Virus record (IMG/VR): IMGVR_UViG_3300050821_002805
Location: 1-39,799 of that record
DNA length: 39,799 nucleotides
Source of the DNA: a virus
Strand: one strand, 5' to 3'
The stretch's first letter is position 1, and every line of letters begins with the position of its first letter. This document shows positions 1 to 39,799 of this stretch, piece after piece. The translations under genes and the position numbers were made by a program. Under the pieces are notes generated by a model. It worked only from the letters and a program-made list of their open reading frames with translations. It was not told the DNA's origin and made no database searches.

Positions 1-8
1 GCTGGCCG

Positions 9-347
9 ATGCCGTTCATGGACAACATCGGAACCGGCCCGGCGAGCGCGCAAGGGACCGCCGTGCTGGCCACTCCGACCGTCGTGCGCGTGACCAAAAG
101 CGTGGCGAGCGGCAGCCTGATTCTGCCGTCGATCCTGACCAACGAGGCGGACCCGATGACCATTGTCATCAACGACAGCGGGCAGACGGTGCTGGTCTAT
201 GCCGCCAAGGGAGAGAGCATGGACGGCTCGCTCAACGGTAACCGCTCGGTTGCAACCGGCGGCGTGGCGTTTTTCCTGCGGGTCCGCGATGCGGAGGCCG
301 TGGGCGGCGGCGCCGGGCCGGACTGGCGCTCGAATGTGATCACCTGA
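9..347 (+). CDS. Putative head protein, 5' end uncertain
   Basis: 112-residue product from the first visible ATG. The frame is open to the window edge and no ribosome binding site is visible in the eight bases upstream, so the true start may lie outside. The protein is rich in Thr, Val, Ser and Gly, with alternating hydrophobic residues suggesting a beta fold (ASGSLILPSILTN, PMTIVINDSGQTVLVY). It sits just before the head-tail connector genes, where P22-like phages end the capsid operon, so a capsid decoration or head-surface protein is an inference from position. I do not recognise a named family. Confidence 0.7.
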   Translation: MPFMDNIGTGPASAQGTAVLATPTVVRVTKSVASGSLILPSILTNEADPMTIVINDSGQTVLVYAAKGESMDGSLNGNRSVATGGVAFFLRVRDAEAVGGGAGPDWRSNVIT

Positions 348-365
348 ACCAAAGGAGCAATGACG

Positions 366-992
366 ATGGAAAACGATAAGACGCACGATCCGCATCAGCC
401 GGTACCGGCACACGCCCCGGCGGCGCCCGCAACGGAACTCACGCCAGCCCAGAAGGCGGAGGCCGAAGAGGCCAAGCGCACGCCGCTGCAGCGGTTCGAG
501 GACCTGGTGCAGGAATCCGTGCGCCGGTTCCACGACGGATCGGGCTTCACCGCCGCATTTGTGATGGGCATGCGCGCTCATCTGGCCGAGCTGCGTGGCG
601 ACGGCAAGCACGAGATCGTCGATACCGCGGCATACGACGGCCGCAACTGGACCGTGACCAGGCCAGGGCTGCATGCGGTCCAGGTGGTCGGCACGCCCGG
701 CATGACGGTCGAGCAGGCCATTGCTGCCGCACAGGTGCAGCTCAACGCGGTCGACAAGTCCACCGGCAAGCCGGTTCTGGCGCTGGTGGACACCGCCACG
801 CTGGACGGCAAGGAATGGACGGTGACGCGCGCCGGCCTGCCGCCGGTCAAGGTGCCATCCGAGCCGGGCATGTCGGCGGAGGGCGCCATTGCGGCCGCGC
901 AGCCCAAGCTCGATGAAGAGCAAAAGGCGGCGGATGCTGCGGCGCAGAAGGAAATCGAGGCCAACAGGGCCGCAGCGGCGAAGGCGGCTTGA
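366..992 (+). CDS. Hypothetical virion-region protein with two tandem repeats
   Basis: 208 residues. ATG 366 is preferred over ATG 360 because AAAGGAG at 351-357 is 8 bases from the former and only 2 from the latter. The N-terminus (1-40) is Pro/Ala-rich, residues 41-80 look helical, and residues 85-126 and 141-182 are two copies of one unit (26 of 42 positions identical by eye; both contain WTVTR, PGM and AIAAAQ). The C-terminal tail is Ala/Lys/Glu-rich and helical. The stop is followed at once by the next ATG. Function unknown; location in the head operon suggests a structural or head-associated role. Confidence 0.75.
   Translation: MENDKTHDPHQPVPAHAPAAPATELTPAQKAEAEEAKRTPLQRFEDLVQESVRRFHDGSGFTAAFVMGMRAHLAELRGDGKHEIVDTAAYDGRNWTVTRPGLHAVQVVGTPGMTVEQAIAAAQVQLNAVDKSTGKPVLALVDTATLDGKEWTVTRAGLPPVKVPSEPGMSAEGAIAAAQPKLDEEQKAADAAAQKEIEANRAAAAKAA
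618..911 (+). repeat. Two imperfect direct repeats within the coding region
   Basis: Codons for residues 85-126 (618-743) and 141-182 (786-911) of the gene at 366-992 encode about 62% identical protein units with a period of 56 residues. This is seen directly in the translation. It reads as an internal duplication of a small beta-alpha module of unknown function. Confidence 0.8.
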
Positions 993-994
993 CC

Positions 995-1492
995 ATGGCG
1001 GGCACCGCAACTGCGCCGCGTGTGAGGCGCTTCACATATACGCCGCTCGATCCCGGCGACCGGCACGAGGTCAAGGTCCATGGCGTGACCTTCAAGGCCA
1101 ACGTGCCGGTCGAGCTCGACGACCAGAAGCACCGCGCGCATATCATGGAAACCGTGACGGTCGGCGAGCGGGACGGCCGCGCACTGACCGAGGGCCGCAT
1201 GGTCTATCGGCCGCTGGCCGATTTGCTCGCCGGCAACAAGACATTCGTCGAGGAGGGTGCGGATCGTCCCAAGCCGGGACGGCCGCCAACGCCGAAGACG
1301 GCCGAGGAGTACCGCGCGCATGCGGTGCGCTGGATCAACGCGGCCCCCAACGCAACGACCATGCTGGAGCGCTGGAAGGCTGAGGCCGACCTGCGCGCGT
1401 CCTGCGATGCGTCTGACGCCATTGCGGAGGACATCTGGAGCAACGTCTACCTGCCGCGCAAGCATGTGCTCGACAATCAGCCGCCGGATTAG
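995..1492 (+). CDS. Hypothetical phage head-region protein
   Basis: 165 residues from ATG 995, three bases after the preceding stop; an in-frame TTG at 989 is a less likely start. Residues 1-80 look beta-rich, the middle holds a basic, Pro-rich linker (PKPGRPPTPKTAEEYRAHAV), and the C-terminal 50 residues look helical and acidic. It is co-oriented and nearly contiguous with its neighbours between the putative head protein and the gp4-like connector, so a head-completion role is possible. No family recognised. Confidence 0.7.
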   Translation: MAGTATAPRVRRFTYTPLDPGDRHEVKVHGVTFKANVPVELDDQKHRAHIMETVTVGERDGRALTEGRMVYRPLADLLAGNKTFVEEGADRPKPGRPPTPKTAEEYRAHAVRWINAAPNATTMLERWKAEADLRASCDASDAIAEDIWSNVYLPRKHVLDNQPPD

Positions 1493-1495
1493 GCC

Positions 1496-1879
1496 ATGCC
1501 GGGCCAGTACCGCACGTCAACCGATCTGATCAACGAGGCGCTCGCCAATCTCGGCGTGCTCGCTGCTGGCCAGCCAACCGACCCGGAGGATTTCAGCTAC
1601 GTGCAGGAAAAGCTCGACGCCATCGTGCGCAAGATGGCTGGGCTGGAATTGCCGTACATTCCCGACATCGAGAACATCCCCGGCGCGTTTTTCTCTGATC
1701 TGGCGGCAATCGTGGCGGGGGAATGCGCGACCAAGTTTGGTTCGACTGCGGAGGATCAGCAGAACCTCGTATCGCAAGGGCTCGGCAATCCGCCAGGCAC
1801 CGGGGCGGCGGCACTTTCGCTGCGGCAGATGATGCGCGGGCGGCCAACTGGTGAACGCGCTCGCGTCGAGTACTTTTGA
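1496..1879 (+). CDS. Head-tail connector / packaged-DNA stabilisation protein, gp4-like
   Basis: 127 residues, mostly helical. The N-terminus (TSTDLINEALANLGVLAAG), a following predicted helix with KLDAIVRKMAGLEL, and a helix ending in CATKFG resemble the small connector proteins of the P22 gp4 (tail accessory factor) type, which bind below the portal and help seal packaged DNA. P22 gp4 is about 166 residues, so this one is short. Position directly before the gp10-like hub supports the call, apart from the inserted gene in between. Its TGA overlaps the next ATG (TGATG). The family call rests on pattern and synteny. Confidence 0.55.
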   Translation: MPGQYRTSTDLINEALANLGVLAAGQPTDPEDFSYVQEKLDAIVRKMAGLELPYIPDIENIPGAFFSDLAAIVAGECATKFGSTAEDQQNLVSQGLGNPPGTGAAALSLRQMMRGRPTGERARVEYF

Positions 1880-10558: not shown

Positions 10559-11110
10559 ATGGCACAGCTCCCTAGCAATATCAGAGTGAACGCACAGTTT
10601 CCATTCCCGTCGCTCGTGCAGGGCAGCGGCCCGGTCACGATCACGAAACAGAACGGCGTCTGGATTGTCGGATGGGGCGTCACGCAGTTCGCCACGACGG
10701 TCCCGCCGGCAACCGATTATGCCGTCGATACCGTGCTGGTCTATAACGCAACCACCAAGACATTTTTCAATATGACGCTGAATGCCCTGATTGGCATTGT
10801 CAGCGGGGAGACGGCGCCCACCATTGTTACGGCGGCCGGGACCTACAACTCGGTCACGACTGACAGCCGCATCCTGATGAACAAGACGGTCGGCGCCGCG
10901 TCATCCGTCGTGCTGGCGGCATCTGCCGGCTATTCCGGGCCGGTGCTGGTCAAGGACTTGAAGGGCGATGCGGATACGCACAATATCACGGTAACATTCA
11001 ACGGCGCCGAGAAGGCTGACGGCCTATCCAGCGTCGTCATATCGACCAAATACGGGGCGTACTGGTTCAACCCGCTGGCATCCGGCGGATGGTATATCAC
11101 GGTGGCATGA
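10559..11110 (+). CDS. Hypothetical fibre-associated protein
   Basis: 183 residues, beta-rich, from ATG 10559 three bases after the preceding stop. The N-terminal segment (PSLVQGSGPVTITKQNGVW) is of the kind found at the start of phage fibre proteins; the second half has a repetitive Thr/Val/Ser beta pattern (TAAGTYNSVTTDSRILMNKT) such as is found in fibre shafts or small trimeric decorations. Its TGA overlaps the ATG of the long fibre, so the two are probably translationally coupled. Confidence 0.65.
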   Translation: MAQLPSNIRVNAQFPFPSLVQGSGPVTITKQNGVWIVGWGVTQFATTVPPATDYAVDTVLVYNATTKTFFNMTLNALIGIVSGETAPTIVTAAGTYNSVTTDSRILMNKTVGAASSVVLAASAGYSGPVLVKDLKGDADTHNITVTFNGAEKADGLSSVVISTKYGAYWFNPLASGGWYITVA

Positions 11111-13389
11111 TGAAACTCCGATCCATCGCTCTGGCGCTCGCCCTCGTCCTCGCATGGCCTCTTACTGCGGTAGCGCAATGCTCAGGCCAATTTGCCGCCA
11201 ATCGTGTGTGCGGCTCGGTAGCCGGTGGGTTGCCAAGCCAAGCCGATCCCGGCGGATTTGCACTGACGCTCACAAATGCACCGCTGACGATCAATCCGAC
11301 CGCCGCGTCAACGACGCAAGGCATTGCCATCACGCAAAGCGGCCCGGCGAGTGGAGTGGTCACGGGACCATTCTTCTTCAACCTCATCAACGTCACTTCC
11401 TACGGCGGCAACACGGCGGGATCGGCCGGCAACGACAGCTTCGGCCTGTTTAATTCAAACGTTAACGCGCTGCGCGTCAATCTCGCAGTTGGTGCTGCCA
11501 CGGGACAGGCGATGGGCGCCGGCACCTTCGCCGTTCGGCAGCAGGCGTCTGGCCAGAACAATGACATGGTTGGCGTGGCCGGTACGGTCTATGGCACTCT
11601 TGCTCAGTCTGGCGGCGCGATGTTTGGCGTGGTTGCCTACACGATGGCCGACACGGGTTACAGTGGGGCCGGACCACGCGCTCTGGAGATAGATAGCGGG
11701 GTCAAATCTGGCGTCGCCGCGACGAGTCGAGCGGGCCTCACCATCGTCAACATATCGACAGGAACCGGATCGACGACCGACGCGGCAATCATTCCGGCGT
11801 CGAACACGGCGGGCGGCGAGTGGAAGAACATCATTCTGCTGTCGAAGGCGATCTATGGGCAGTTCCCGACCGCTTCGACTTCCGCATTCCTGGCCGCCGA
11901 TACAGCGGCGACCCCGATAAATCATATCCTTGACCTGACTAACTTCACGATTAGTGGAAACATCATCAACAGCGCGAACGCCACTCTTCGCGGCGACGGC
12001 AGTCTGGCGTTGTCTACGACGAACTCTCTCCCGGTAACTATCACGGGGACCAATGCGAGCGGCAATATCTCGAACATGGTGACGACCGCTGGGTTGGCGA
12101 CAGGTTGGGCATTCGTCGATGGCGCCGTCTCTAAGTGGATTGTTGGAAAACAAACAGACAACACCTTCATCATTCGCGATGCAGTCAACTCGATCACCGC
12201 ACTCGTCGGTAATCCGGGAATCGTCTCGGCCGGTACCGTAGGCATCAACTATACGACCGATGCAAGCTCGACCTCGACAGGGGCGCTGCAATCGGCAGGC
12301 GGCCTCGGTGTGGCCAAGACCATCTGGGCCGGAACTAACGTCACGACGCCGATCGTCGCTGGCGGCTCGGGGGCGTCCTCGACTTTGAAGCTGGAGAGCA
12401 CGTCGGGCGCCGGTACAACCGACTCGATCATCTTCCAGACTGGCAGTCAGGCATTCGCCGGCAAGATCAACACGACGCAGCAATGGGTGATCGGCCAAAA
12501 CAATATAACGCCAGCAACAGGTGTGCCGCTCACAGTCTCACGCAACACGGCCGCCGCTGTCGCATCGGCGTCTTTACAGCCGCTCATTCACGCGATTGCC
12601 GCCGATGGTGTGCAATCATCAACTCTTATAGATTCGTTTGGCACGAGCACTGCGCCATTTTTTGTCATGCGTACTGCGCGCGGAACCGGCGCGGCATTTA
12701 CGCCCGTGCAAAGTCAAGACCCGCTTGGTTATTTTGGAATGCTTGGAGCATCACAGAACAATGTTTTTCCTGCTTACAACGGTACGGCAAGTGGGGTCTT
12801 TTTTGGTGGCAGAGCAAGCGAAACGTGGACAGCAACGGCTAATGGCACACAAATAGAAATTTATACAACACCAAATACCACAGCCGTAATCGCGAAAGTC
12901 GCAACATTTCAGAACAGCGGTGGGCTATCGATCGGCACTACGACCGATCCCGGCATCGGCAGCCTGCAACTGAACGCGCAAATGTTCATGCCGAACATAA
13001 CGACCACGTCGGCCGCTCAGACCGGAACAGTGTGCTGGACGACCGGCACTGGCAAGTTCACGGTGGACACCACGCTAGGATGCCTCTCGTCGAGCGAGCG
13101 GTGGAAGCAGAACATCACACCACTTGGCAGCGCCATGGCGGAAGTTATGGCGCTCAAGCCGGTGACCTACGAATGGCGCAATCCGATCGGCGATGGTCAG
13201 AAAGGCCAGCAGATAGGGCTGGTTGCCGAGGATGTCTATGCCATAGATCCACGGCTTGCTGGACTTGGCGAGGACGGCGCCCCCAGGGGATGGCGCCAGG
13301 ATGCGATGATCGCGACGCTGGTGCGAGCCTTTCAGGAGTTGAAGGCCGATAACGACAATCTACGGCGACAGATAAGGAAGGCTCAATGA
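11107..13389 (+). CDS. Long tail fibre with S74 self-cleaving chaperone domain and signal-like N-terminus
   Basis: 760 residues. The N-terminus is a clear Sec-type signal pattern: basic MMKLR, a hydrophobic core (SIALALALVLAWPLTAVAQ) with Ala-x-Ala before residue 27. Residues 30-640 are Thr/Ser/Gly/Ala-rich fibre shaft. From about residue 658 comes an intramolecular chaperone of the peptidase S74 family: LSSSERWKQNITPLG holds the Ser and Lys expected of the autocleavage dyad, followed by VTYEWRN, GQQIGLVAEDV and a C-terminal coiled coil (FQELKADNDNLRRQI). S74 domains trimerise fibres or spikes and then release themselves. Bases of about 12640-12910 are visibly AT-richer than the rest, suggesting a recombinant shaft segment next to the chaperone. 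Confidence 0.9.
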   Translation: MMKLRSIALALALVLAWPLTAVAQCSGQFAANRVCGSVAGGLPSQADPGGFALTLTNAPLTINPTAASTTQGIAITQSGPASGVVTGPFFFNLINVTSYGGNTAGSAGNDSFGLFNSNVNALRVNLAVGAATGQAMGAGTFAVRQQASGQNNDMVGVAGTVYGTLAQSGGAMFGVVAYTMADTGYSGAGPRALEIDSGVKSGVAATSRAGLTIVNISTGTGSTTDAAIIPASNTAGGEWKNIILLSKAIYGQFPTASTSAFLAADTAATPINHILDLTNFTISGNIINSANATLRGDGSLALSTTNSLPVTITGTNASGNISNMVTTAGLATGWAFVDGAVSKWIVGKQTDNTFIIRDAVNSITALVGNPGIVSAGTVGINYTTDASSTSTGALQSAGGLGVAKTIWAGTNVTTPIVAGGSGASSTLKLESTSGAGTTDSIIFQTGSQAFAGKINTTQQWVIGQNNITPATGVPLTVSRNTAAAVASASLQPLIHAIAADGVQSSTLIDSFGTSTAPFFVMRTARGTGAAFTPVQSQDPLGYFGMLGASQNNVFPAYNGTASGVFFGGRASETWTATANGTQIEIYTTPNTTAVIAKVATFQNSGGLSIGTTTDPGIGSLQLNAQMFMPNITTTSAAQTGTVCWTTGTGKFTVDTTLGCLSSSERWKQNITPLGSAMAEVMALKPVTYEWRNPIGDGQKGQQIGLVAEDVYAIDPRLAGLGEDGAPRGWRQDAMIATLVRAFQELKADNDNLRRQIRKAQ

Positions 13390-22220: not shown

Positions 22221-23597
22221 TCACCCCGCCGCCTTCAGCTCCGCAATTGCCTTCTCAATCCTCTTCTTGATCGCCTGCCATTCTGGCGGATCGCCCCATG
22301 TGATCAGCTCGCGCATGCGTTTCTCGGAGGCCCATTGCTCGCCGATCTGATTGGCATGCTCGGGCCGCGATGCGCGGTCGATGCGCGCGTTCCAGTCGGC
22401 GGCGTAGAGCTCGGCGGTGGGGATAGGATCGGCGGCGCCTGCGGGGGCCGGGGGATTGGCGTTGTTCGCAGGCGCCTTTGCCGCCTCCTGGGTTGCCCCC
22501 GCGGCGGGTTCTGTGACGGCCGGCTCGCGCTGCCAGGCGCGGTATTCGGCGACCAGTGCGCGCCAGAGTTTGCCAGATGGATGGCCGTTCTTGATGTCGG
22601 CTCGGCTATCGACGATGCAGTGAGCGCGGACGGCCGCGGCTGCGCTGTCAGCGCCGTTGACGGCGAATTGCGAGTGCGTGTCGTTCAGGAACCGCCAGAA
22701 CGCGGGCTCATTGCATAGGATGCCGGCCTGCTGCGCCGGGCTCATGTCCTCCCACTTGCTGCTCGTCTCGGGACGCATTTCCTTGTCCCACGCCTCGGGC
22801 GTCGGTGTTAGCTCTCCGGTCTGCTCGTCCCACGTCTCGGTCGTTTGGCTCGCTTCCTTCAGGTCGGCCATTTTCTCGTTGTACCGGAGCCGCAAATGCG
22901 CCTGCCAGTCCGGCGGCAGCACCTTGGCGCGCTCGATGGCACCCTTGCCCCACGTTTGCAACTCGACCACACTGCGTGCCGCGTAAATCTCGGCCTGCAT
23001 CGTCTTGTAGAGCGGCGTCGAATCCTTCTTGGGCAGATGCGTGACCGCCCCGTCGCCAGCGTCGTTGTCGATCGCGTCCGACGTGCGAATCTTGAACTGC
23101 TTGATGCAGAAATACTTTTCCGCCTGTGTGTGGCACTTGGCGGCGGCCTTGTCGTCCGTGATTCCCTTCTGGTCGCGCAACCGGGAAATCGCCGTCCATG
23201 TGATCGGAGGCCATTGCTCGCCGTGCTCGTTGACAATGGTGAACTCATACACGATGGCTAGCGTCGAGCCCTTGTCGTTTTCCTCGAGCAAGCTGCGCGA
23301 TGTTTCCGACTGGATGATCAGGATGCCGTGCTCGGCAAGCAGCGGAGAGAGTTTGTCGTTGATGTCCTCCCACCGCGCGTAGTTGTACCGCTGGAAGTCG
23401 TTGCGGCCTTCCTTGCCAATCAGGCCGATCTCGCGCGTGATGGCGAGCAGTGCCTTGGCCAGTCGCGGCGGGAAATGCTTTGGCTCGGGCTTGGCGGCCG
23501 GCGTCTTTGGCTGCGGCGCAGACGGCACGGCCGGCAGGTTGTTCGGCGCCGGCTCGGACATATCCACAACTTTTTCTGCGGTCGTTTGCACGTTCAT
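22221..23597 (-). CDS. erf: ERF-family single-strand annealing protein
   Basis: 458 residues from ATG 23597 (leftward; AGGA upstream). After a Pro-rich leader (residues 20-45), residues 45-190 match the ERF (essential recombination function) pattern: LAITREIGLIGKEGRNDFQR, WEDINDKLSPLLAEHGILI, then strands with IVYEFTIVNEHGEQ and the late KAAAKCHTQAEKYFCIKQFK. ERF proteins anneal complementary single strands and support recombination and genome circularisation in P22-like phages. P22 Erf has about 200 residues; here an additional 260-residue helical and Pro/Ala-rich C-terminus follows, of unknown role. Confidence 0.85.
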   Translation of the reverse strand: MNVQTTAEKVVDMSEPAPNNLPAVPSAPQPKTPAAKPEPKHFPPRLAKALLAITREIGLIGKEGRNDFQRYNYARWEDINDKLSPLLAEHGILIIQSETSRSLLEENDKGSTLAIVYEFTIVNEHGEQWPPITWTAISRLRDQKGITDDKAAAKCHTQAEKYFCIKQFKIRTSDAIDNDAGDGAVTHLPKKDSTPLYKTMQAEIYAARSVVELQTWGKGAIERAKVLPPDWQAHLRLRYNEKMADLKEASQTTETWDEQTGELTPTPEAWDKEMRPETSSKWEDMSPAQQAGILCNEPAFWRFLNDTHSQFAVNGADSAAAAVRAHCIVDSRADIKNGHPSGKLWRALVAEYRAWQREPAVTEPAAGATQEAAKAPANNANPPAPAGAADPIPTAELYAADWNARIDRASRPEHANQIGEQWASEKRMRELITWGDPPEWQAIKKRIEKAIAELKAAG

Positions 23598-23605
23598 GAC
23601 GTTTC

Positions 23606-23803
23606 CTATCGGTTCAAATATGACTCGCGTTGAGCATCGTTCCACGGTTTCATCACGTCTTTGCGCGTGTCGCCGGGGCGGGCCTCAAGCGTATGTTGGT
23701 TGAATTCTCCCAGGATCACTTCGCCGGTCTGCGAAGCCATCATAACCATGCGATTGGCAAAGACATTGATGCACTCTGTAGGCTCTGCGATCATGATAAT
23801 CAC
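23606..23803 (-). CDS. Small hypothetical protein in the replication block
   Basis: 65 residues from GTG 23803 (leftward), overlapping the stop of the DnaA-like gene (GTGA), with AAGG as SD. Contains IAEPTECINVFANRMVMMAS and EVILGEFNQHTLEARPGDTR. No motif recognised. Position between the DnaA-domain gene and erf, with coupling, suggests a role in replication or recombination. Confidence 0.55.
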   Translation of the reverse strand: MIIMIAEPTECINVFANRMVMMASQTGEVILGEFNQHTLEARPGDTRKDVMKPWNDAQRESYLNR

Positions 23804-28982: not shown

Positions 28983-29500
28983 CCGACGCCACCGAGCTGG
29001 AGCGCCAGTATTTCGAGCGCGGCAAGTCGCTGCTCGGTCGCAATGCCGGCGGCCTGCTGGCGAACCTGCTGCGGGCCAAGTCGGGCAATATCGCGCTGGC
29101 CCGCGCCGAGCTCGAACGGGCCTCGACCAAGCAGGACCCGCGCGAATGGCTGGCCAAGGTCGCGGCGCCGCGGGGAAGTGGGCTGGCCGGCAATGGCTAT
29201 GTGGATGAATTCGTGCTGCGGGCCGCGGCGCAGCTGCGCGAGCGCGAGCTGGCCCGCGAGCCGACGCCGGCCGATCGCGAAGCCGTGGCGGCCATTCATG
29301 AGCGGTATCGGGGGCATAAATCTGTGGATAACTCAGAGCCGTGCCGGCGCGATGGCCGCAAGGCCCGGACCAGCGAGCACGGCCGCCGCGTGCTGGCCGA
29401 TCTGGAGCGGCGGCGCGCCCAGGCCGAGCACCCGGACGACGTGCTGGCGCGCACCACGAAACTCGCGGCAGAGGCGGATGAACTGGATAGGCAGCCATGA
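28979..29500 (+). CDS. Hypothetical replication-region protein
   Basis: 173 residues from ATG 28979, overlapping the preceding stop. The segment RGKSLLGRNAGGLLANLLRA with NIALARAELERASTKQDP resembles the C-terminal module that follows replication proteins or helicase loaders in many proteobacterial phages (KxLLGxxAGGLI pattern). The C-terminal half is charged and helical. It directly precedes the methyltransferase and overlaps it by 4 bases. A replication role is inference. Confidence 0.6.
   Translation: MTDATELERQYFERGKSLLGRNAGGLLANLLRAKSGNIALARAELERASTKQDPREWLAKVAAPRGSGLAGNGYVDEFVLRAAAQLRERELAREPTPADREAVAAIHERYRGHKSVDNSEPCRRDGRKARTSEHGRRVLADLERRRAQAEHPDDVLARTTKLAAEADELDRQP
29323..29331 (-). 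other. Perfect DnaA box inside a gene
   Basis: TGTGGATAA within the gene at 28979-29500, in the same context (TCTGTGGATAA) as the box at 26683. May be functional or a chance match. Confidence 0.4.
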
Positions 29501-30192
29501 GCGATCCGTTTGCCGGCCTGCCGCGCGGGCATTTCGGGGTGATCCTGGCCGATCCGCCGTGGTCGTTCGAGGTTTGGTCGAAAGACACTGGTAATGGGCG
29601 CTCGGCGAGCGCCCATTACCAGACCCTGTCATTCGGCTCCTTGTGCGAGCTGCCCGTGAAAGCAGTGGCGGCTGACAATTGCGTCCTGTTTATGTGGGCT
29701 TGCTGGCCCACGATCAAAGATGCCTTCAATCTGATTGATGCTTGGAGATTCACGTACAAGACGTGTGCCTTTGATTGGACGAAGGCGCACGCGAATCAAA
29801 TCGAAATGTTCCGCGACGACGCGGACGGCCAAGTCGGCATGGGATATTGGACCCGCGCAAACACTGAGCCGTGCCTGTTGGCAACGCGCGGTACACCAAA
29901 GAGAATCAACGCCGATGTTCGGCAAGCAATCATCGAGCCGCGCCGCCAGCACAGCCGCAAGCCCGATTGCGTGCATGAGCGCATCGAGCGCCTGGTCGCT
30001 GGCCCATACCTCGAATTATTTGCTCGGCAATCGCGCCCCGGCTGGACGACATGGGGCAACGAGGCGACGAAGTTCGACAAGCCGCTACAGCCCGGCTGGG
30101 AAAACGACGACATGGCCGAATCAATCAAGGCAGGCTTCGACGCCGTCCGCGACCGCGTAGCACAGGGAGGACCCACATGGACGCCAAAATGA
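29497..30192 (+). CDS. MT-A70 family adenine-specific DNA methyltransferase
   Basis: 231 residues from ATG 29497. The N-terminal catalytic motif DPPW (residues 19-22, in VILADPPWSFEVW) is the hallmark of the MT-A70-like N6-adenine methyltransferases; it is followed by GRSASAHYQTLS, VLFMWACWP, YKTCAFDWTKAH, GYWTRANTEPCLLATRG and ERIERLVAGPYLELFARQ, all in the family order, the last being near the SAM-binding end. It transfers methyl groups from S-adenosylmethionine to adenine in DNA and could protect phage DNA from host restriction or mark replication sites. A striking 35-base hairpin lies inside the coding sequence. Confidence 0.9.
   Translation: MSDPFAGLPRGHFGVILADPPWSFEVWSKDTGNGRSASAHYQTLSFGSLCELPVKAVAADNCVLFMWACWPTIKDAFNLIDAWRFTYKTCAFDWTKAHANQIEMFRDDADGQVGMGYWTRANTEPCLLATRGTPKRINADVRQAIIEPRRQHSRKPDCVHERIERLVAGPYLELFARQSRPGWTTWGNEATKFDKPLQPGWENDDMAESIKAGFDAVRDRVAQGGPTWTPK
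29588..29622. repeat. Perfect 16-bp inverted repeat inside the methyltransferase gene
   Basis: CTGGTAATGGGCGCTC, loop GGC, and its exact reverse complement GAGCGCCCATTACCAG. All 16 pairs match, and the bases beyond do not pair. It encodes residues of the conserved GRSASAHY part of the enzyme. In RNA it would be a very stable stem; in DNA a cruciform candidate. Confidence 0.9.
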
Positions 30193-32437: not shown

Positions 32438-32613
32438 TGGAATTCCGCATCATGAAGCTACGTGATGGCGGATACATTGTATGCCACCAGAGCGATTACA
32501 TGATGCGCGATGCAGGAGGTTTTTCACCGCCAGTGTTCGCATCTGCGAAGATCGCCGAAGCCCTTGAATACATTCGGGAACGCTTCGACCATCCTGAACA
32601 GTCGAAAACCTAA
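32434..32613 (+). CDS. Small hypothetical protein
   Basis: 59 residues from ATG 32434. Beta-turn-beta start (FRIMKLRDGGYIVCHQSDY) followed by a helix (AKIAEALEYIRERF). Too short for the usual 60-residue cut-off, but coupling by ATGA with the preceding gene and good sequence character support it. Function unknown. Confidence 0.55.
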   Translation: MMEFRIMKLRDGGYIVCHQSDYMMRDAGGFSPPVFASAKIAEALEYIRERFDHPEQSKT

Positions 32614-32643
32614 CGCGGCTTCTTGGCCGCCGCCGAAGGCGGA

Positions 32644-32916
32644 ATGGACCGGCAAATGACCATCATCCTTTATGGCGCTCTGGCGGTATCCGTGGCGGCG
32701 TGCCTCTATGTGATTTTCTTCGTCGCCGAGCCGCTTCGCCGCGACCGCGACAAATGGCGGGAATTGGCTCATGGCGGCGGTGATTTGCTCTCGCGCCAGC
32801 AGGAGATGGAAAAAGAGGCGCATCTGGCCCGCAAGGCTTACGATGCGCGTATCCATCGCAAGATCAACGCAAGCGATCTGGAATCCGCGCGAGGCCGACC
32901 GCCGCAAAGGTCGTGA
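32644..32916 (+). CDS. Small membrane-anchored protein
   Basis: 90 residues from ATG 32644; ATG 32656 is an alternative. A transmembrane helix (MTIILYGALAVSVAACLYVI) precedes a charged helix (FFVAEPLRRDRDKWRELAHG) and a basic tail. It is the last gene before the terminase and could be an envelope factor or exclusion protein. Unknown function. Confidence 0.6.
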   Translation: MDRQMTIILYGALAVSVAACLYVIFFVAEPLRRDRDKWRELAHGGGDLLSRQQEMEKEAHLARKAYDARIHRKINASDLESARGRPPQRS

Positions 32917-32948
32917 GACCTGTCACATTTTCGCTGATTTGGCAATGA

Positions 32949-32967
32949 GGTTATGGAAACCATTACC
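32949..32967. other. Imperfect inverted repeat before terminase small subunit
   Basis: GGTTATGG-AAA-CCATTACC pairs at 7 of 8 positions. It sits in the 69-base gap upstream of the terminase small-subunit gene, where a late-gene operator or packaging-recognition site is plausible. It is not followed by a T-run, so a terminator is unlikely. Confidence 0.35.
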
Positions 32968-32985
32968 TGACGTTTCACGGGAAAC

Positions 32986-33624
32986 ATGTCTGTTCTCAGC
33001 AATCCGAAATGGGAGCTTTTTGCTCAATTCTGCGCCAAGGGCGTTGAAGAGGTCGACGCTTATGAAAAGGCAGGTTTTGTTCGACATTATGCGAACGCTC
33101 GGCGGCTGAGCTTAAATGAGGCCGTTCGGAGTAGAATTGAGGAGATTTTGAGTGCTGCGGCTCAGAGGACAGAAATCACTGTGGCCAAGGTATTGAATGA
33201 GTTGGCAAAAATTGCGTTTGGTGATCTCCGAAAGGCGGTTCGCTGGCGCGGAAACCTCGTTGAGATTAGGGAAGCTGATCCAAACGCGCCGGACGAAGTC
33301 GCCATCATCAAGCTGATCGTCAACAATCAGGTGGAGCTGGTCGATTGCGACAAGCTGGACGATGATACGGCATCGACGATTGCTGAGGTCAAGCAGAACG
33401 TTACGGGCGGCGTGTCGATCAAGCGCTATGACAAGGTGCGCGCCTTGCAGCTCATCGGCGAATATCTCTCAATGTGGAAAGGCGATGCTGATCGGCCGGC
33501 TGATGGGGTAAAGCCAAGCGAGATCGATCGGCCGCCGCCAGAGAGTTACGAGGACTATCTTGCAAGACGCCGTGCAGAAATGGGCCTGGAGTCCCCAGCT
33601 CGGCCCCCAGGTCGAAGCCATTAG
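32986..33624 (+). CDS. terS: Terminase small subunit
   Basis: 212 residues from ATG 32986. The N-terminus NPKWELFAQFCAKG, VDAYEKAGF and NARRLSLNEAVRSRIEEILS follow the Terminase_2 small-subunit pattern: a helix-turn-helix that recognises the packaging site, then a central region for oligomerisation (EITVAKVLNELAKIAFGD) and a C-terminal part for binding the large subunit. Residues 190-212 are encoded in the overlap with the large subunit. Confidence 0.85.
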   Translation: MSVLSNPKWELFAQFCAKGVEEVDAYEKAGFVRHYANARRLSLNEAVRSRIEEILSAAAQRTEITVAKVLNELAKIAFGDLRKAVRWRGNLVEIREADPNAPDEVAIIKLIVNNQVELVDCDKLDDDTASTIAEVKQNVTGGVSIKRYDKVRALQLIGEYLSMWKGDADRPADGVKPSEIDRPPPESYEDYLARRRAEMGLESPARPPGRSH

Positions 33625-35134
33625 GGCCACATGGGCAGGAGAATTGTTCTATGGCGGGGCTGCGGGCGGCGGTAAGAGCGATTTCCTGCTCGGCGACTTC
33701 CTGCAGGACGTTCCGGTCTATGGCGCGGCCTGGCGCGGCATCATCTTCCGGCGCACTTACGGCGAGCTCCAGGACCTGTTCGAGCGTGCCCAGGAGATTT
33801 ATCCACAGACCGGCGCAACGTGGAACGAGCAGAAGCACACCTGGAAATGGCCGAACGGCGCAACACTGCGGTTCCGCTATCTTGAGCAGGACAAGCACAA
33901 GACGCGGTACCAGGGGCATTCATACACATGGATAGGGTGGGACGAATTGACGCAGTGGCCGACCGATGCGGCCTATCGATACTTGCGCGCTCGGTTGCGC
34001 TCCCCGCACCATGTACCGACGAAACGCATCCGTGCCACGGCCAACCCTGGCGGCGTTGGTCACCATTGGGTGAAAGCGTACTTTGTGACGCCTGCCCCAG
34101 GCGGCTGGGTGCCGCTGGAGGACACCGTTACCAAGATGCGCCGGATGTTCATCCCGGCCAAGCTGACCGACAATGCGATTCTGCTGAGGGGTGATCCGAA
34201 CTACGCCGATCGGCTCCGCGGGCTCGGCTCCGATGCGCTGGTCAAGGCATGGCTGGATGGAGACTGGAATGTCGTCGAGGGAGCGTTCTTTGACTGCTGG
34301 TCGCAGCGCAACATTATCGCGCCGTTCACTGTTCCGCGCGATTGGCTGCGCTTTCGCAGCGCTGACTGGGGCAGCGCTTCCCCGTTCAGCATCGGCTGGT
34401 GGGCCGTTGTCCAAGACGATTTCAGCCCAGCAGGCATGGAACATGCGCCAGTCGGAGTTGATACACGGGGAGTGGATGACGATCGAAGAATGCGCGACGG
34501 AATTTCCCTTCTCCCTCGTGGAGCCATTGTCCGTTATCGAGAATGGTACGGCTCAACCGATCCCGCCACCGGAGCTAAGGGCCTCAAGCTGACCGCCGAG
34601 CAAGTGGGAGACGGCATTGTGCAGCGCGAAAAGGAACTGGGCCTCAATGACAAGCCGGCGCTCAGCTACGGCGTGCTAGACCCGTCAGCGTTCCGTGAGG
34701 ATGGCGGCCCGAGCTTGGCGGAGCGCATCAACTCTGTTCTGCTCGCCAAGCGCCTTGCTCCCTTTCATGCTGCGGACAACACCCGCGTTTCGACTGCGGA
34801 AAGCAAGGACCGCCGCGGCGCAATGGGCGGCTGGGATCAGATGCGCTCGCGCATCATTGGGGCGGACGGCAAGCCCATGATATACTGCTTTGACACCTGC
34901 GTTGCATCGATCCGCACCATTCCGATGCTGCAGCACGATCCGGTAAAGGCAGAGGACTTGGACACTAACAGCGAGGACCACGCGGCCGATGACTGGCGTT
35001 ATGCGTGCATGAGCCGGCCGTGGCCCAAGTCGAAGCCGGAAAAGCCCAAGCCGGAATATGCGTACCGGCCAGGCGGCCCGCACGGCGGGGGCGAGGAATA
35101 CGGCAGGCAGATCGACGAATGGAAAACCACATGA
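33560..35134 (+). CDS. terL: Terminase large subunit
   Basis: 524 residues from TTG 33560, behind GAGG at 33550-33553; no ATG lies in frame before the ATPase motif. Walker A GGAAGGGKS at residues 32-40, Walker B YTWIGWDEL at 122-130, and TANPGG at 160-165 form the packaging motor ATPase. The nuclease domain has the three Asp regions expected of an RNase H-like fold: SADWGSASPF (D269), GVLDPSAF (D374) and SEDHAADDWRY (472-481). It cuts concatemeric DNA and pumps it through the portal. The gene overlaps terS by 65 bases. Confidence 0.95.
   Translation: MQDAVQKWAWSPQLGPQVEAIRATWAGELFYGGAAGGGKSDFLLGDFLQDVPVYGAAWRGIIFRRTYGELQDLFERAQEIYPQTGATWNEQKHTWKWPNGATLRFRYLEQDKHKTRYQGHSYTWIGWDELTQWPTDAAYRYLRARLRSPHHVPTKRIRATANPGGVGHHWVKAYFVTPAPGGWVPLEDTVTKMRRMFIPAKLTDNAILLRGDPNYADRLRGLGSDALVKAWLDGDWNVVEGAFFDCWSQRNIIAPFTVPRDWLRFRSADWGSASPFSIGWWAVVQDDFSPAGMEHAPVGVDTRGVDDDRRMRDGISLLPRGAIVRYREWYGSTDPATGAKGLKLTAEQVGDGIVQREKELGLNDKPALSYGVLDPSAFREDGGPSLAERINSVLLAKRLAPFHAADNTRVSTAESKDRRGAMGGWDQMRSRIIGADGKPMIYCFDTCVASIRTIPMLQHDPVKAEDLDTNSEDHAADDWRYACMSRPWPKSKPEKPKPEYAYRPGGPHGGGEEYGRQIDEWKTT
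33799..33807 (+). other. Perfect DnaA box inside the terminase gene
   Basis: TTATCCACA in the terminase large subunit gene, where it encodes Ile-Tyr-Pro-Gln context. Third exact match in the window; coding constraint may explain it. Confidence 0.35.
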
Positions 35135-35283
35135 CCCTCATCATTGCCTTCGCGTGGCTGGCCGCCGCCGTCATCATTGGTGCGCTCGTGGCACAGCCGC
35201 AGGCGCATTGCCGCGATGGTGACTATGCGTTCTATCTCGGCGGCGTGAAGCAGTACGGCTGCGGGCCAGTGGTGAAGCCATGA
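35131..35283 (+). CDS. Small membrane protein
   Basis: 50 residues from ATG 35131, overlapping the terminase stop (ATGA); ATG 35119 would add four residues. One transmembrane or signal segment (MTLIIAFAWLAAAVIIGALV) followed by a short Cys-containing tail (HCRDGDYAFYLGGVKQYGCG). Function unknown. Coupled to the next gene. Confidence 0.55.
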   Translation: MTLIIAFAWLAAAVIIGALVAQPQAHCRDGDYAFYLGGVKQYGCGPVVKP

Positions 35284-35411
35284 TTCATCTGGCCAAAAAG
35301 CTCAAGCCATTGCTGTATCTGTTCGATCCAGCCGAGCCTCCGCCGCGCAAATACACGCTATATTGCTACATCGTGTTTCCGTTCGCGGTATGGAAAGCTT
35401 CCCATGACTAA
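35280..35411 (+). CDS. Very small hypothetical protein
   Basis: 43 residues from ATG 35280 (overlaps previous TGA). Hydrophobic and aromatic (AKKLKPLLYLFDPAEPPPRK, YTLYCYIVFPFAVWKASHD). The overlaps at both ends support translation. Function unknown. Confidence 0.45.
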   Translation: MIHLAKKLKPLLYLFDPAEPPPRKYTLYCYIVFPFAVWKASHD

Positions 35412-35676
35412 CACTCTCCCCGCCGACGTTGTCGAGCTCGTTGATCGCCGCGCTGCGCTGGAATCCCTGCGCATGTCGGTCTATTGGGCATGCCGCGGTC
35501 CCACGCCGAGCATCCGCGAGACCGCGCTCGGCTGCGCATCGCCGTATGCCGTGCTCGCACCGGGTCTCGTGCCGCCGGTTCATAATCTGTCGCATCAGAC
35601 CTGCGTGTTCCGGGCTGCGCTGCGGCTGGGCATCATTGACCCGCTGACCGGGCAAGAAATGGCAGGATCGGCATGA
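35404..35676 (+). CDS. Hypothetical protein between terminase and portal
   Basis: 90 residues from ATG 35404, overlapping the preceding stop by 8 bases. Contains ADVVELVDRRAALESLRMSV, a Cys-containing middle and FRAALRLGIIDPLTGQEMAG. Soluble, alpha-helical. No family recognised. Coupled to the next ATG by overlap (ATGAG). Confidence 0.6.
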   Translation: MTNTLPADVVELVDRRAALESLRMSVYWACRGPTPSIRETALGCASPYAVLAPGLVPPVHNLSHQTCVFRAALRLGIIDPLTGQEMAGSA

Positions 35677-35846
35677 GACATCCATTCGAGGGATGGACGC
35701 GAGACCTGCTGATCATGAAAATCAGAGAGGAAAAGATCGGCTTTGATCGCGCTTGGCCGCTGGAGAGCAGGTCAACCGCCGAGCTGCAGCGTATCTTGCG
35801 CGAATGGTTGCAATGTCGGCCGCGGTTGGTGGTGGAGAACGCCTGA
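35673..35846 (+). CDS. Small protein preceding the portal
   Basis: 57 residues, ATG 35673 to TGA 35844-35846. Basic and amphipathic helices (MRHPFEGWTRDLLIMKIREE, TAELQRILREWLQCRPR). Its start overlaps the preceding TGA and its stop overlaps the portal ATG. Falls below usual length cut-offs; overlap at both ends is the support. Could aid portal assembly; not demonstrated. Confidence 0.5.
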   Translation: MRHPFEGWTRDLLIMKIREEKIGFDRAWPLESRSTAELQRILREWLQCRPRLVVENA

Positions 35847-37879
35847 TGGTATTCGCCGGCGCACCAGCTCGCAGGGCAGGCCAAGGCGAAAGCCCGCGCT
35901 TTCAATCGCGCACCGGCACGCTCGGCACATGGGGCACCAACGCGCCGGACGACTTCGATTGGTCGGGCGATGATGATGGTCGGTTTCCTGTCACCCGGCT
36001 GCGGCAGCAATACATCGACTATCTGGCGACGAAGGTCGACGAATATGAAGAGCAGAAGCAGGCGCGGCACTACTACAACGCGGCGCACTGGACGCACGAG
36101 GAAATCCGCATCCTGCGCGCTCGCCGCCAACCGATCATTACCTTCAACAGGATCGGGCGCAAGATTGATTCCATTGTCGGTTTGGTACAGCGCTTTAGGC
36201 AGGAACCTAAAGCATATCCAAGACACCCTTCGCAGGCTCAAGGCGCCGACATAGCCACGCAATGCCTGCGTGCCGCACTGGACGGCATGGACTTCGCGGC
36301 GCTGGACTTCCAGATTTGCCGGCAGGCAGCAATCGAGGGCATCGGTGGAATCGAGCTCAAGCTTACAGAGGGAGATCATCAGGACCCTGACATTACGGGC
36401 GACTTCATTTTCGGTGATGACTTCTTCTATGATCCTCGATCATTTAAGCCGGACTTCTCTGACTCACGTTGGATGGGAATCGCCAAATGGTTGGACGTGG
36501 AGGCGGCAATTGAGCTATTCCCTGATAAGGAGCACGAGCTCCGAACGCTCATGGTCGATACCGGCTTTGATCTGACCACGCATGCCGACCGCGAATTCAA
36601 ATGGGTGTACGTCAACGAGCAGCGCTTGCGCCTCGTCGAGCACTGGTACAAGCACCGCGGAAAATGGTTCTGGTCATTCTACTGCTCGAACATGGAGCTG
36701 GCACACGGCGTCAGCCCGTTTCTCGACGAGCGCAACCGGCCAATGAACCGCTTTGTCATGTTCAGCGCGGCGGTGGATCATGACGGCGACCGTTACGGCT
36801 TCGTGCGCAACCTGAAAGGGCCGCAGGACGAGATCAACCAGCGCCGCTCCAAGATGCTGCATATCAGCAACACGTCGCGGGTATTCGCGCGCAAGGGCAG
36901 CGTGGACGATGTCGAGACGGCGCGCCGCGAGATGATGAAGCCGGACGGCTGGGTCGAGGTCAATCCGGGCTTTGATCTGCCGCAGGAAACGCAGAAGGCG
37001 GAAAACCTTGCGGCACAGGGCGAGCTTTACCAGTCAGCCACGCTTGAGGTCGACAGCTTCGCCAACATCAATCCGGCACTGATGACGCAGGACGACGATC
37101 ACTCTGGCAAGGCCATCAATCTGCTGCAGAAGGCCGGAATTGCCGAGATCGGCTCGTTTGTCCTCTACTACAAGCAATGGAAACATCGTGTTTACCGCGC
37201 CGTGTGGAACATCATCAGCCGCGAGTGGCAGAACGAGCGCTGGATTCGCGTCAGCGGTCAGGACAGCAAGATACCGCAATTCCTGCAGCTGAACGCGCCG
37301 CAGCCAGGCATGATCAATCAGTGGGGACAGCCGGTCATCATCAATGCCATCGGCTCGCTGGACGTGGATATCGTGCTCGACGACGGGCCGGACACGCCAA
37401 ACCTGCTGATGGAAGCCTACGAGATGGTCAAGGACGATCCGTCCGTGCCGTGGCCGATCAAGTTGATGCTCATGCCGATGTCGCAGGAGATGAAAGACAA
37501 GATCGACCAGATGCAGCAGCAGGCGGCGCAGCAGCAGAAGCCAGACCCGCAGACGCAGGCCAAGATACAGACGGAGCAGATCAAGCAGCAGGGCATGCAG
37601 GCCAAGAACCAGACCGAGCTTGCGCGCGAGCACATGGCGGCACAGGCCGACGCGGCGCAGTCTCAGGCCGAGGTCCAATCTCGCATGCAGGATTTGGCGA
37701 TCCAGCGCGAGAAGGCGCAGGCCGAGCGGCAGAAAATCCATCTTGAGATGGTGCAGGCGACGCAGGAGCACGCATTCCGCATGCAGGAATTGCGCGAGCA
37801 GGCGCGGACGCGTTTCGAGCAGCATGCGCAAAAGCGGGCTGAGGCCCGGCGGCGGCCGAAACAGGCGGCGGCGCGATGA
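35846..37879 (+). CDS. P22-type portal protein
   Basis: 677 residues from ATG 35846; an in-frame ATG 35753 upstream would overlap another gene. Family features of P22-like portals (P22 gp1, 725 residues) are plain: QPIITFNRIGRKIDSIVGLV, RQEPKAYPR, FQICRQAAIEGIGGIELKLT, FIFGDDFFYDPRSFKPDFSD, NRFVMFSAAVDHDGDRYGFV, and IIINAIGSLDVDIVLDDGPD. The C-terminal 150 residues are a Gln/Ala/Arg-rich coiled coil corresponding to the barrel that extends into the capsid. The portal forms the dodecameric DNA channel used by the terminase. Confidence 0.93.
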   Translation: MVFAGAPARRAGQGESPRFQSRTGTLGTWGTNAPDDFDWSGDDDGRFPVTRLRQQYIDYLATKVDEYEEQKQARHYYNAAHWTHEEIRILRARRQPIITFNRIGRKIDSIVGLVQRFRQEPKAYPRHPSQAQGADIATQCLRAALDGMDFAALDFQICRQAAIEGIGGIELKLTEGDHQDPDITGDFIFGDDFFYDPRSFKPDFSDSRWMGIAKWLDVEAAIELFPDKEHELRTLMVDTGFDLTTHADREFKWVYVNEQRLRLVEHWYKHRGKWFWSFYCSNMELAHGVSPFLDERNRPMNRFVMFSAAVDHDGDRYGFVRNLKGPQDEINQRRSKMLHISNTSRVFARKGSVDDVETARREMMKPDGWVEVNPGFDLPQETQKAENLAAQGELYQSATLEVDSFANINPALMTQDDDHSGKAINLLQKAGIAEIGSFVLYYKQWKHRVYRAVWNIISREWQNERWIRVSGQDSKIPQFLQLNAPQPGMINQWGQPVIINAIGSLDVDIVLDDGPDTPNLLMEAYEMVKDDPSVPWPIKLMLMPMSQEMKDKIDQMQQQAAQQQKPDPQTQAKIQTEQIKQQGMQAKNQTELAREHMAAQADAAQSQAEVQSRMQDLAIQREKAQAERQKIHLEMVQATQEHAFRMQELREQARTRFEQHAQKRAEARRRPKQAAAR

Positions 37880-38073
37880 AAAAGGTTCATTTGATGTGGC
37901 TGCGCAATGCGGACGGCACTCATTCATTTGTCGCCTATGAAAATCCCGATGATGCTAGGGCCAAGATCGCAGACATAGCGCGTATGGCTCCCGGCTGGAA
38001 AGGTGAGAGCGAAGTATGCGAAATTCCATATATGGAAGATAGGTGGTATATGTGGAGGCCGGGAGCCCGATAG
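37876..38073 (+). CDS. Small hypothetical protein
   Basis: 65 residues from ATG 37876, overlapping the portal stop. Trp/Met-rich beta strands (KKVHLMWLRNADGTHSFVAY) followed by a helix and a Trp-rich end (YMEDRWYMWRPG). Function unknown. Adjacent to the next ATG without a gap. Confidence 0.55.
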   Translation: MKKVHLMWLRNADGTHSFVAYENPDDARAKIADIARMAPGWKGESEVCEIPYMEDRWYMWRPGAR

Positions 38074-38277
38074 ATGGCACGAATCGCCAAGATCAAATGC
38101 GACAAGTGCGCCAGCGAGGTTGAGGCGCGCAACGTGCCGCTGCCGAATGGATGGTCGCTGTTCGTCATCACGGACTATCGCGGTGGCGCGCATCCCGATA
38201 AAACCACGCAGCACGAGCTCTGCGAGAAATGCACCGAGATGGTCAAGATGTACATCAAGGATGGGGGCATGAGATGA
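38074..38277 (+). CDS. Zinc-ribbon protein
   Basis: 67 residues from ATG 38074. CxxC pairs in KIKCDKCASEV and LCEKCTEMV fit a zinc ribbon around the strand-rich middle NVPLPNGWSLFVITDYRG. Small proteins of this type are common in phage head operons; function unknown. The TGA overlaps the next ATG. Confidence 0.65.
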   Translation: MARIAKIKCDKCASEVEARNVPLPNGWSLFVITDYRGGAHPDKTTQHELCEKCTEMVKMYIKDGGMR

Positions 38278-38681
38278 AACGGCTGATCATCGGAGTTCTG
38301 GCGTTGCTGGCGAGCGCTTCGCTGTCCGTCGCCGAGCCGCCGACCGAGGCGCATCCGGTCAAATACCTCAGCGCGGCGAGCAACAATGCAACGCTGGTGC
38401 AGGTCGGGCGCGTGCGGTTGCTCGCAATAGCAGCCGTGAACACGACGGCGACGATCTATTACCTCAAGTTCTACGACAAGGCGACGGCGCCGACATGCGG
38501 GACCGATACGCCGGTGTGGACGCTGCCGCTGCTGGTATCGACCGTGGCGCCAACGCTCGTGCCGACGCCGGATGGGCTGGAATTCTTCGCCGGGCTCGGG
38601 TTCTGCCTCGTGGCAAATCTCGTGGACAGCGACAACACCAACGCCGCGACGGGCGTGGCGATCAATCTGGGGATCAAGTGA
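38274..38681 (+). CDS. Exported hypothetical protein
   Basis: 135 residues from ATG 38274. Clear signal peptide (MKRLIIGVLALLASASLSVA) with cleavage predicted near residue 20. The mature part is beta-rich (ATIYYLKFYDKATAPTCGTD, TVAPTLVPTPDGLEFFAGLG, ATGVAINLGIK) with two Cys residues that could form a disulfide. The pattern resembles small phage structural or decoration proteins that have a signal sequence; either secretion or an unprocessed virion protein is possible. Confidence 0.65.
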   Translation: MKRLIIGVLALLASASLSVAEPPTEAHPVKYLSAASNNATLVQVGRVRLLAIAAVNTTATIYYLKFYDKATAPTCGTDTPVWTLPLLVSTVAPTLVPTPDGLEFFAGLGFCLVANLVDSDNTNAATGVAINLGIK

Positions 38682-39799
38682 GCTTCTGTCTCAGCCTCAT
38701 CAGCTTCGCGGTTGCGAGCGCCTATCTGCCAGGCATCAGCAACGCCGCGAACGCGCCGCGCTGGGCGATCATGTCGGTTGTAGTGCCGATTTTCCTGTGG
38801 GTGCTCCGTCGCCCATTGGCTTCGTCACTCGACTACGGACATGCGCTCGGCGCGGCGCTGCTAATCTGGGCGGCGCTATCCATGTGGTGGACGCCGAGCC
38901 GCTGGGACGGGGCGGACGCGCTTTGGCATTGGCTGCTGCTCGGCGGCGTGTTTGGGCTCTTTGCCCAGATCGATGACATGCGGCCGGTTTACATCGGTTT
39001 TGGGCTCGGCGTGTGCGCGAGCTCGGCGCTGATGGCTTGGCAATGGCTCGGCGCCGGGGCACCACTGACCGGGACCGTGCATATGGCCTACAAATGGGGC
39101 CTGTACCATCCGGGCGGCCTGTTTGGTAATTCGAGCTTTGCCGGGGAGGCCGCGGCGCTGGCGATCGTGGGGGCTCTTTCGCGCACATGCGATGACGACA
39201 AAACACTGCCCGTTTTGGAGCGGTTTCGCCGGCTGAAGCAGGATTGGCTTTGGTGGTTGCTTGCAGCCGGCTGCCTGCCCTGCCTCGTCCTGTCCGGCAG
39301 CCGCGGCGGCTTGTTCGCGCTCGGCGTGGTCGGCCTCGCATGGCTATGGGGCCGCTTCAAGCCACTGACGGTCGGACTTGGCTGCGTTGGCCTGGCGGTC
39401 CTGTGGGACATTGCCGGCAGCCGGACCGCGCTGGAGCGTTTTGACATTTGGGCCGATACGGCGCAAAACTTGCGCCTGTTCGGCCATGGTGTCGGGTCGT
39501 TCTGGGTCAATTTCCCAAATGGTGCAACGCACACCGATACGCTGGCAATCCGGTATGACCACGCGCATAACGACTTTCTCGAGATTGCTTACGAATTCGG
39601 CCTATGTGGCGTGGTGCTGGTCGGCGCCATCGTGGCTTTTGCGCTTCGTCATTCTCTGCGAATGGATCGGCTCGTTGTGGTCGCGTTTCTCGCGGAGGCG
39701 ACGGTCGGTTTTCCGACGTTCACCCCGGCGACGGCCTTTCTGGGAGTCGCGGTTATTGGCCATATTTGCGGTGGCTGGTATGGTCTATACGGCCGGCTC
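38678..39799 (+). CDS. O-antigen ligase/polymerase-like membrane protein (3' end outside)
   Basis: 374 codons open from GTG 38678 (overlapping the preceding TGA) to the window end; no stop reached. About ten hydrophobic segments. The Wzy_C/WaaL signature is visible: VLSGSRGGLFALGVV at about residue 203 and, after the large periplasmic loop, an HAHNDFLEIAYEFGLCGVVL block with His295 near residue 295. These proteins join or polymerise O-antigen repeats on lipid carriers in the periplasm. In a phage it would change host surface polysaccharide, possibly excluding other phages. It is in the head operon, where such a gene is not expected. Confidence 0.8.
   Translation, partial: MSFCLSLISFAVASAYLPGISNAANAPRWAIMSVVVPIFLWVLRRPLASSLDYGHALGAALLIWAALSMWWTPSRWDGADALWHWLLLGGVFGLFAQIDDMRPVYIGFGLGVCASSALMAWQWLGAGAPLTGTVHMAYKWGLYHPGGLFGNSSFAGEAAALAIVGALSRTCDDDKTLPVLERFRRLKQDWLWWLLAAGCLPCLVLSGSRGGLFALGVVGLAWLWGRFKPLTVGLGCVGLAVLWDIAGSRTALERFDIWADTAQNLRLFGHGVGSFWVNFPNGATHTDTLAIRYDHAHNDFLEIAYEFGLCGVVLVGAIVAFALRHSLRMDRLVVVAFLAEATVGFPTFTPATAFLGVAVIGHICGGWYGLYGRL

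Follow-up and report, generated by a model that had tools for sequence, protein, structure and literature searches.

What is a gene resembling O-antigen ligases and polymerases doing among the packaging and head genes of a phage? To our knowledge, the O-antigen enzymes described from phages so far are encoded by temperate phages as conversion genes that the prophage expresses. The window analyzed here, that is, the whole stretch of 39,799 bases with linear ends that constitutes IMG/VR record IMGVR_UViG_3300050821_002805, ends in such a gene, which the original prediction had read as a Wzy/WaaL-like gene co-expressed with the capsid genes. The features that bear on this question lie at the two ends of the window, as follows.

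3..347, + strand: 5'-truncated homologue of the small p123 gene that stands after coat in relatives; right-hand continuation of the late operon
989..1492, + strand: homologue of the p185 gene that lies between coat and neck genes in relatives
1496..1879, + strand: homologue of the gene in the adaptor position of relative L038
2511..3998, + strand: head closure Hc3 (phrog_578, E 3.8e-57)
32986..33624, + strand: terminase small subunit, TerS (PF03592, E 3.7e-17)
33560..35134, + strand: terminase large subunit, TerL (PF03237; phrog_979)
35753..37879, + strand: portal protein, P22 type (PF16510, E 1.8e-88; phrog_156)
37876..38073, + strand: small ORF of 65 aa with no assigned function
38074..38277, + strand: small ORF of 67 aa with no assigned function
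38229..38681, + strand: small protein with a predicted Sec signal peptide (MKRLIIGVLALLASASLSVA-EPP, judged by eye from the sequence)
38678..>39799, + strand: gene for a predicted Wzy_C/WaaL-type polytopic membrane glycosyltransferase (PF04932; profile and fold match to 7TPG; viral relatives)

The predicted place of the gene in a head and packaging cluster was confirmed, as TerS, TerL and a P22-type portal precede it in the window, and scaffold and coat follow it in relative L088. The late operon appears split across the record ends, with neck genes on the left (1-3998) and packaging and portal genes on the right (32986-39799). Neck genes normally come after coat in phage maps, and because the left end (3-3998) holds just those genes, the record reads as a phage map cut within the late operon and does not run on into a host chromosome. 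From the gene order of the relatives, we infer that the DNA lacking between 39799 and 1 would hold scaffold, coat and the 3' end of the Wzy-type gene. The window gave no match to a tyrosine integrase, in agreement with the original prediction, and none to a GT2 glycosyltransferase, while each family was found in 14 of 14 control genomes. A scan of 32500-39799 for promoters and terminators did not rise above shuffled sequences, so that a promoter before the Wzy-type gene is neither supported nor excluded; gene order suggests late timing. Elsewhere the window encodes an MT-A70 family DNA methyltransferase (29497-30192; PF05063, E 5e-28), an ERF-family single-stranded DNA annealing protein (22221-23645; - strand, the late genes being on the +) and a 766-aa protein (11089-13389) with a C-terminal endosialidase-type chaperone domain (Peptidase_S74), which is probably a tail spike or fiber.

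The frame begins at GTG 38678 and stays open for 374 codons up to the contig end; complete relatives are mostly about 340-440 aa long. Its GTG overlaps the TGA (38679-38681) of the gene at 38229-38681, which bears out the predicted start by overlap; as a refinement, the overlapped gene, third after the portal, encodes a small protein with a predicted signal peptide and not a known portal component. The motifs on which the family assignment had been based are present, namely, GSRGG (R209) and HAHNDFLE (H295, H297 and N298), and Pfam Wzy_C (PF04932) matches residues 196-315 above its cut-off (E 1.8e-10, 41.3 bits versus 31.7), so the profile search upholds the assignment. Wzy_C was matched by 9 of the 10 family members scanned and was the only Pfam family among them, PglL_A (PF15864) included in the search; NCBIfam gave no match for ten members and PHROGs none for the window protein, and the search with PF13425 was empty here as it was in the control genomes.

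We then compared the fold with solved structures, using an AlphaFold model built from 21 members (mean pLDDT 87.4, pTM 0.88). The model contains about 11-12 membrane-length helices, and the polytopic nature of the protein is borne out. It resembles the O-antigen ligase WaaL (7TPG) with a Z score of 23.5 over 323 residues (rmsd 3.9 A), a match that stands alone among solved structures, the next being SEDS proteins at Z 9-11; Foldseek gave E 2.2e-6 for the same pair. A profile of 21 relatives likewise finds 7TPG (E 3.3e-11, chain residues 56-337) as its only convincing solved relative. Three residues of the window protein align with the putative catalytic set of this structure.

39302..39304, + strand: codon of R209 (SRGG), aligned with R191 of 7TPG
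39437..39439, + strand: codon of R254 (ERFDIW), aligned with R265 of 7TPG
39566..39568, + strand: codon of H297 (HAHN), aligned with H313 of 7TPG

Across the 21 aligned members, H297 never varies, and conservation is 90% or more for R209 and R254. By alignment, we take R191, R265 and H313 of 7TPG to be the equivalents of R215, R288 and H338 in Escherichia coli WaaL. These E. coli residues are reported to matter for function and are common to PglL enzymes (PMC3643930), and R290 and H323 of MagA, a polymerase with Wzy_C, are essential (PMC3485256). The window protein is therefore a member of the Wzy_C/WaaL superfamily with an intact set of the putative catalytic residues. Among the viral structures of BFVD, no match to the model was found at E <= 0.001. 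The best viral fold match there was A0A3G2KG04, an uncharacterized protein of Arthrobacter phage Faja (probability 1.00, TM 0.41, E 0.018), which is perhaps a remote Wzy/WaaL-like protein in a phage of a Gram-positive host.

The Wzy_C/WaaL type spans ligases, polymerases and protein O-glycosyltransferases, and sequence and fold cannot separate the three. A WaaL ligase hands O-antigen carried on undecaprenyl pyrophosphate over to lipid A-core; a Wzy polymerase joins O-units into chains, and cells that lose it have semi-rough lipopolysaccharide. A Wzy polymerase that alters the linkage or length of the O-antigen repeat, like Wzy-beta of phage D3, would suit the family because PF04932 covers polymerases as well as ligases, phage-borne serotype-converting Wzy enzymes are known, and most Wzy proteins that form beta linkages are reported to carry Wzy_C (PMC12502699). 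On the other hand, the only solved relative is a WaaL, a weak point given that no solved Wzy came up for comparison, and hhalign of the family against D3 Wzy-beta detected no sequence relation (probability 0.1%, the lone D3 sequence being a weak template). The parallel originally drawn with the D3 serotype-converting polymerase is one of function, and we consider a polymerase rather unlikely, against a ligase.

To learn whether the gene belongs to phages at all, we looked for its relatives. Viral contigs scanned with the single window protein gave none, and relatives were reached first through the portal and then through alignments of the growing family. The portal search returned 70 viral loci, and only 1 of the 45 records behind them carries Wzy_C (L038, whose 387-aa protein shares 36% identity with that of the window). 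Besides the window, about 25 viral contigs hold members of the family, with relatives of 27-39% identity among them, and the tree comprises 26 different members with the window included; weak family-profile matches (L083-L085, L106 and L107) were left out of the membership, and L086 and L087 gave no match. The existence of these relatives together with the profile match to 7TPG puts the observation far beyond chance. The window protein and the L073 and L081 members found no match by tblastn in 50,697 phage records. Species genomes of bacteria and archaea, 84,980 in all, were scanned by way of short conserved motifs, a method that could miss divergent cellular relatives; it gave only partial matches, nearly all of them to residues of about 180-370, the generic Wzy_C region. 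No cellular match extended over the N-terminal part of the family, which has a PRW motif, though the search patterns included N-terminal motifs. Because cellular genomes yielded partial matches only, the full-length family would be restricted to viruses, as far as the collections searched show.

These results also bear on the idea that the gene is a stray host gene or a chimeric contig end with no phage role. The truncation at the very end of the contig would fit it. Yet the relatives on independent viral contigs sit in the same modules and are flanked by phage genes to the left and right, the cellular matches are partial, and substitution patterns show constraint (dN/dS of about 0.26-0.46 in four pairs, by a simple Nei-Gojobori estimate with some rows taken stop to stop). 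We regard this explanation as close to negligible in probability, and a host run-on was rejected outright on the contiguous portal, Wzy-type gene, scaffold and coat of L088.

The positions of the relatives are mostly within late modules. The order in L088 is portal, Wzy-type gene, scaffold, coat, p197, p185, adaptor and Hc3, and in L038, L075 and L078 the gene lies between the coat and neck genes. The terminase large subunit is encoded just upstream in 11 contigs (in L076 its match falls just below the Pfam cut-off), 7 of which, L076, L077, L089, L096, L098, L102 and L105, also have the portal downstream. Terminase is two genes upstream in L073, L074 and L079, the last of which then has a tail-fiber gene, and downstream in L090 and L091; a tail gene follows at 3 kb in L093, an endolysin gene adjoins in L094, and the neighbors in L092, L095, L099 and L100 lack a clear structural assignment. 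When four slot classes were placed on the family tree, they required 4 changes (the minimum being 3) versus a mean of 12 after shuffling, and 0 of 200 shuffles were as low. Support is firm for the coat-neck group (98/95) and for the core of the TerL group (100/99), but weak for deep branches. Since the slot follows the gene tree, the gene has long been in its slot, a pattern more in keeping with a resident function of the phage than with recent captures happening repeatedly. We thus view it as a virus-specific, long-resident WaaL/Wzy_C-type family and not as a recent pick-up from a host.

The endolysin neighbor in L094 and the fold shared with SEDS peptidoglycan polymerases (Z 9-11) raise another explanation, in which the protein would divert or sequester undecaprenyl-linked intermediates and slow envelope synthesis, helping lysis or arresting the cell with no surface decoration. 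We hold it to be highly improbable, as the WaaL match is far stronger than the SEDS match, the active-site residues are kept, and the gene stands away from lysis genes in most relatives.

The gene is also patchy and counts as an accessory. The portal of L049 is 84% identical to that of the window, and a different ORF follows the same exported-protein gene there. This ORF (L049:6993-7136) starts like an Acb2/Tad1 hairpin protein (PF24729, 13.2 bits versus a cut-off of 27, with 48 residues seen), and from this similarity a counter-defense gene in the slot of the Wzy-type gene is possible.

The product of the predicted exported-protein gene has no Pfam match, and homologues of it lie downstream of the portal in many relatives that lack the enzyme; behind the portal of many relatives its domain is seen again, either as a protein by itself or as part of a larger exported ORF. 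Between portal and scaffold the relatives have anything from almost no DNA to 9 kb. Many large ORFs in this interval start with clear Sec signal peptides, which are unusual on structural-looking late phage proteins. Large ORFs of 650-1180 aa with this feature are as follows.

L006:9932-13075: signal-peptide ORF in the portal-scaffold interval
L016:5618-8584: signal-peptide ORF in the portal-scaffold interval
L025:14370-17912: signal-peptide ORF in the portal-scaffold interval
L041:14785-16980: signal-peptide ORF in the portal-scaffold interval
L068:15149-17335: signal-peptide ORF in the portal-scaffold interval
L075:4456-6429: signal-peptide ORF in the portal-scaffold interval

Four of these large ORFs were scanned against Pfam and gave no match. 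The L075 ORF holds a tailspike-like RRPEDFGAICNG stretch.

Such neighbors invite the reading that the enzyme is a protein O-oligosaccharyltransferase of the PglL/PilO kind, which would move a host lipid-linked glycan onto exported proteins, possibly the adjoining phage signal-peptide proteins. PglL enzymes likewise fall under Wzy_C, and their genes frequently adjoin the target gene (PMC3643930). In the window the enzyme gene overlaps the gene for a predicted exported protein, an exported p197-type gene lies just upstream of it in L075 and L078, and the portal-scaffold regions of relatives are rich in signal-peptide ORFs. Against this, Wzy_C is the sole Pfam family in the 10 members with no PglL_A, a point tempered by PilO, an O-oligosaccharyltransferase without PglL_A motifs (PMC3643930); exported proteins of this kind are encoded by many relatives that do not have the enzyme as well; and the gene follows TerL in 11 contigs, so no fixed substrate gene travels along with it. 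We judge this reading unlikely. Very unlikely, in our estimate, is a bolder version that joins the virus-specific WaaL-type enzyme to an exported late module, the enzyme glycosylating the phage's own signal-peptide proteins in the periplasm, or anchoring host glycan on them, and building a phage-made surface coat late in infection. That the slot varies while the enzyme is kept, with no fixed partner gene, favors autonomous action on the envelope.

Taking these lines of evidence jointly, the reading we lean toward, with confidence only a little above even, is that a late-made WaaL/Wzy_C-type enzyme alters the host surface glycan and keeps virions from adsorbing to infected cells and debris. The product would be an integral glycosyltransferase of the inner membrane whose active site faces the periplasm. 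As its gene is embedded among packaging and head genes, it is probably produced late in infection, along with the capsid proteins. It would probably take a host-made glycan linked to undecaprenyl-pyrophosphate and pass it to a new acceptor; with no GT2 match in the window, the donor glycan would come from the host. This transfer would change the O-antigen or another surface glycan of the infected cell, a host with O-antigen being assumed, and the altered surface would no longer bind the phage's own, or competing, virions, so that superinfection would be prevented and progeny kept off dying cells and debris. Against the proposal, a late-made enzyme may be too slow to recoat the cell before lysis, and the gene is patchy, with Wzy_C in only 1 of 45 records that have a related portal. 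It is an old idea that phages change their receptor before lysis so that progeny avoid debris. If our reading is true, the remodeling of cell surfaces would belong among the late lytic functions as well, in uncultured phages that have P22-type portals, and the family makes the old idea testable and serves as a marker for finding such phages.

Comparison with known systems places the family more precisely. WaaL of Cupriavidus metallidurans (PDB 7TPG/7TPJ; PF04932) shares the full-length fold, the Wzy_C domain, the Arg/Arg/His set and the HAHN motif, but identity is only about 14-15%, and the phage gene sits in a packaging/head cluster and not in a lipopolysaccharide locus. The SEDS polymerases RodA and FtsW have a related multi-helix membrane glycosyltransferase fold, but their match is much weaker than that of WaaL, and the window protein carries Wzy_C motifs, not SEDS motifs. 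PglL and PilO share the same Wzy_C domain and three catalytic residues (PMC3643930), whereas the scanned phage members lack a PglL_A match and a constant neighboring substrate gene. Bcep22-like podoviruses (Lessievirus, including CSP3) have a distantly related P22-type portal (about 24-25% identity), but no counterpart of the enzyme was found with three family members as queries in the 50,697 phage records. Infection by Burkholderia phage CSP3 requires host waaL and O-antigen (PMC10269572), and, given the distant portal kinship, O-antigen is a plausible receptor in this broad group and might be that of the window's phage. D3 Wzy-beta and VarioGold p25 are likewise polytopic O-antigen enzymes of similar size borne by phages, in these cases temperate ones. 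VarioGold p25 is reported to carry Wzy_C, and its gene is oriented against the late genes, near lysogeny genes (PMC9658991); D3 wzy-beta runs counter to the late genes of its phage, in the space that separates them from the integrase. In contrast to this separate lysogenic-conversion placement, the window gene is co-directional and overlapping in the head/packaging cluster, and the present family lies within the late genes and reads in their direction; the window record has no integrase match. The superfamily itself is known; what is new is a virus-specific WaaL/Wzy_C family, otherwise undescribed, in the late genes of uncultured phages.
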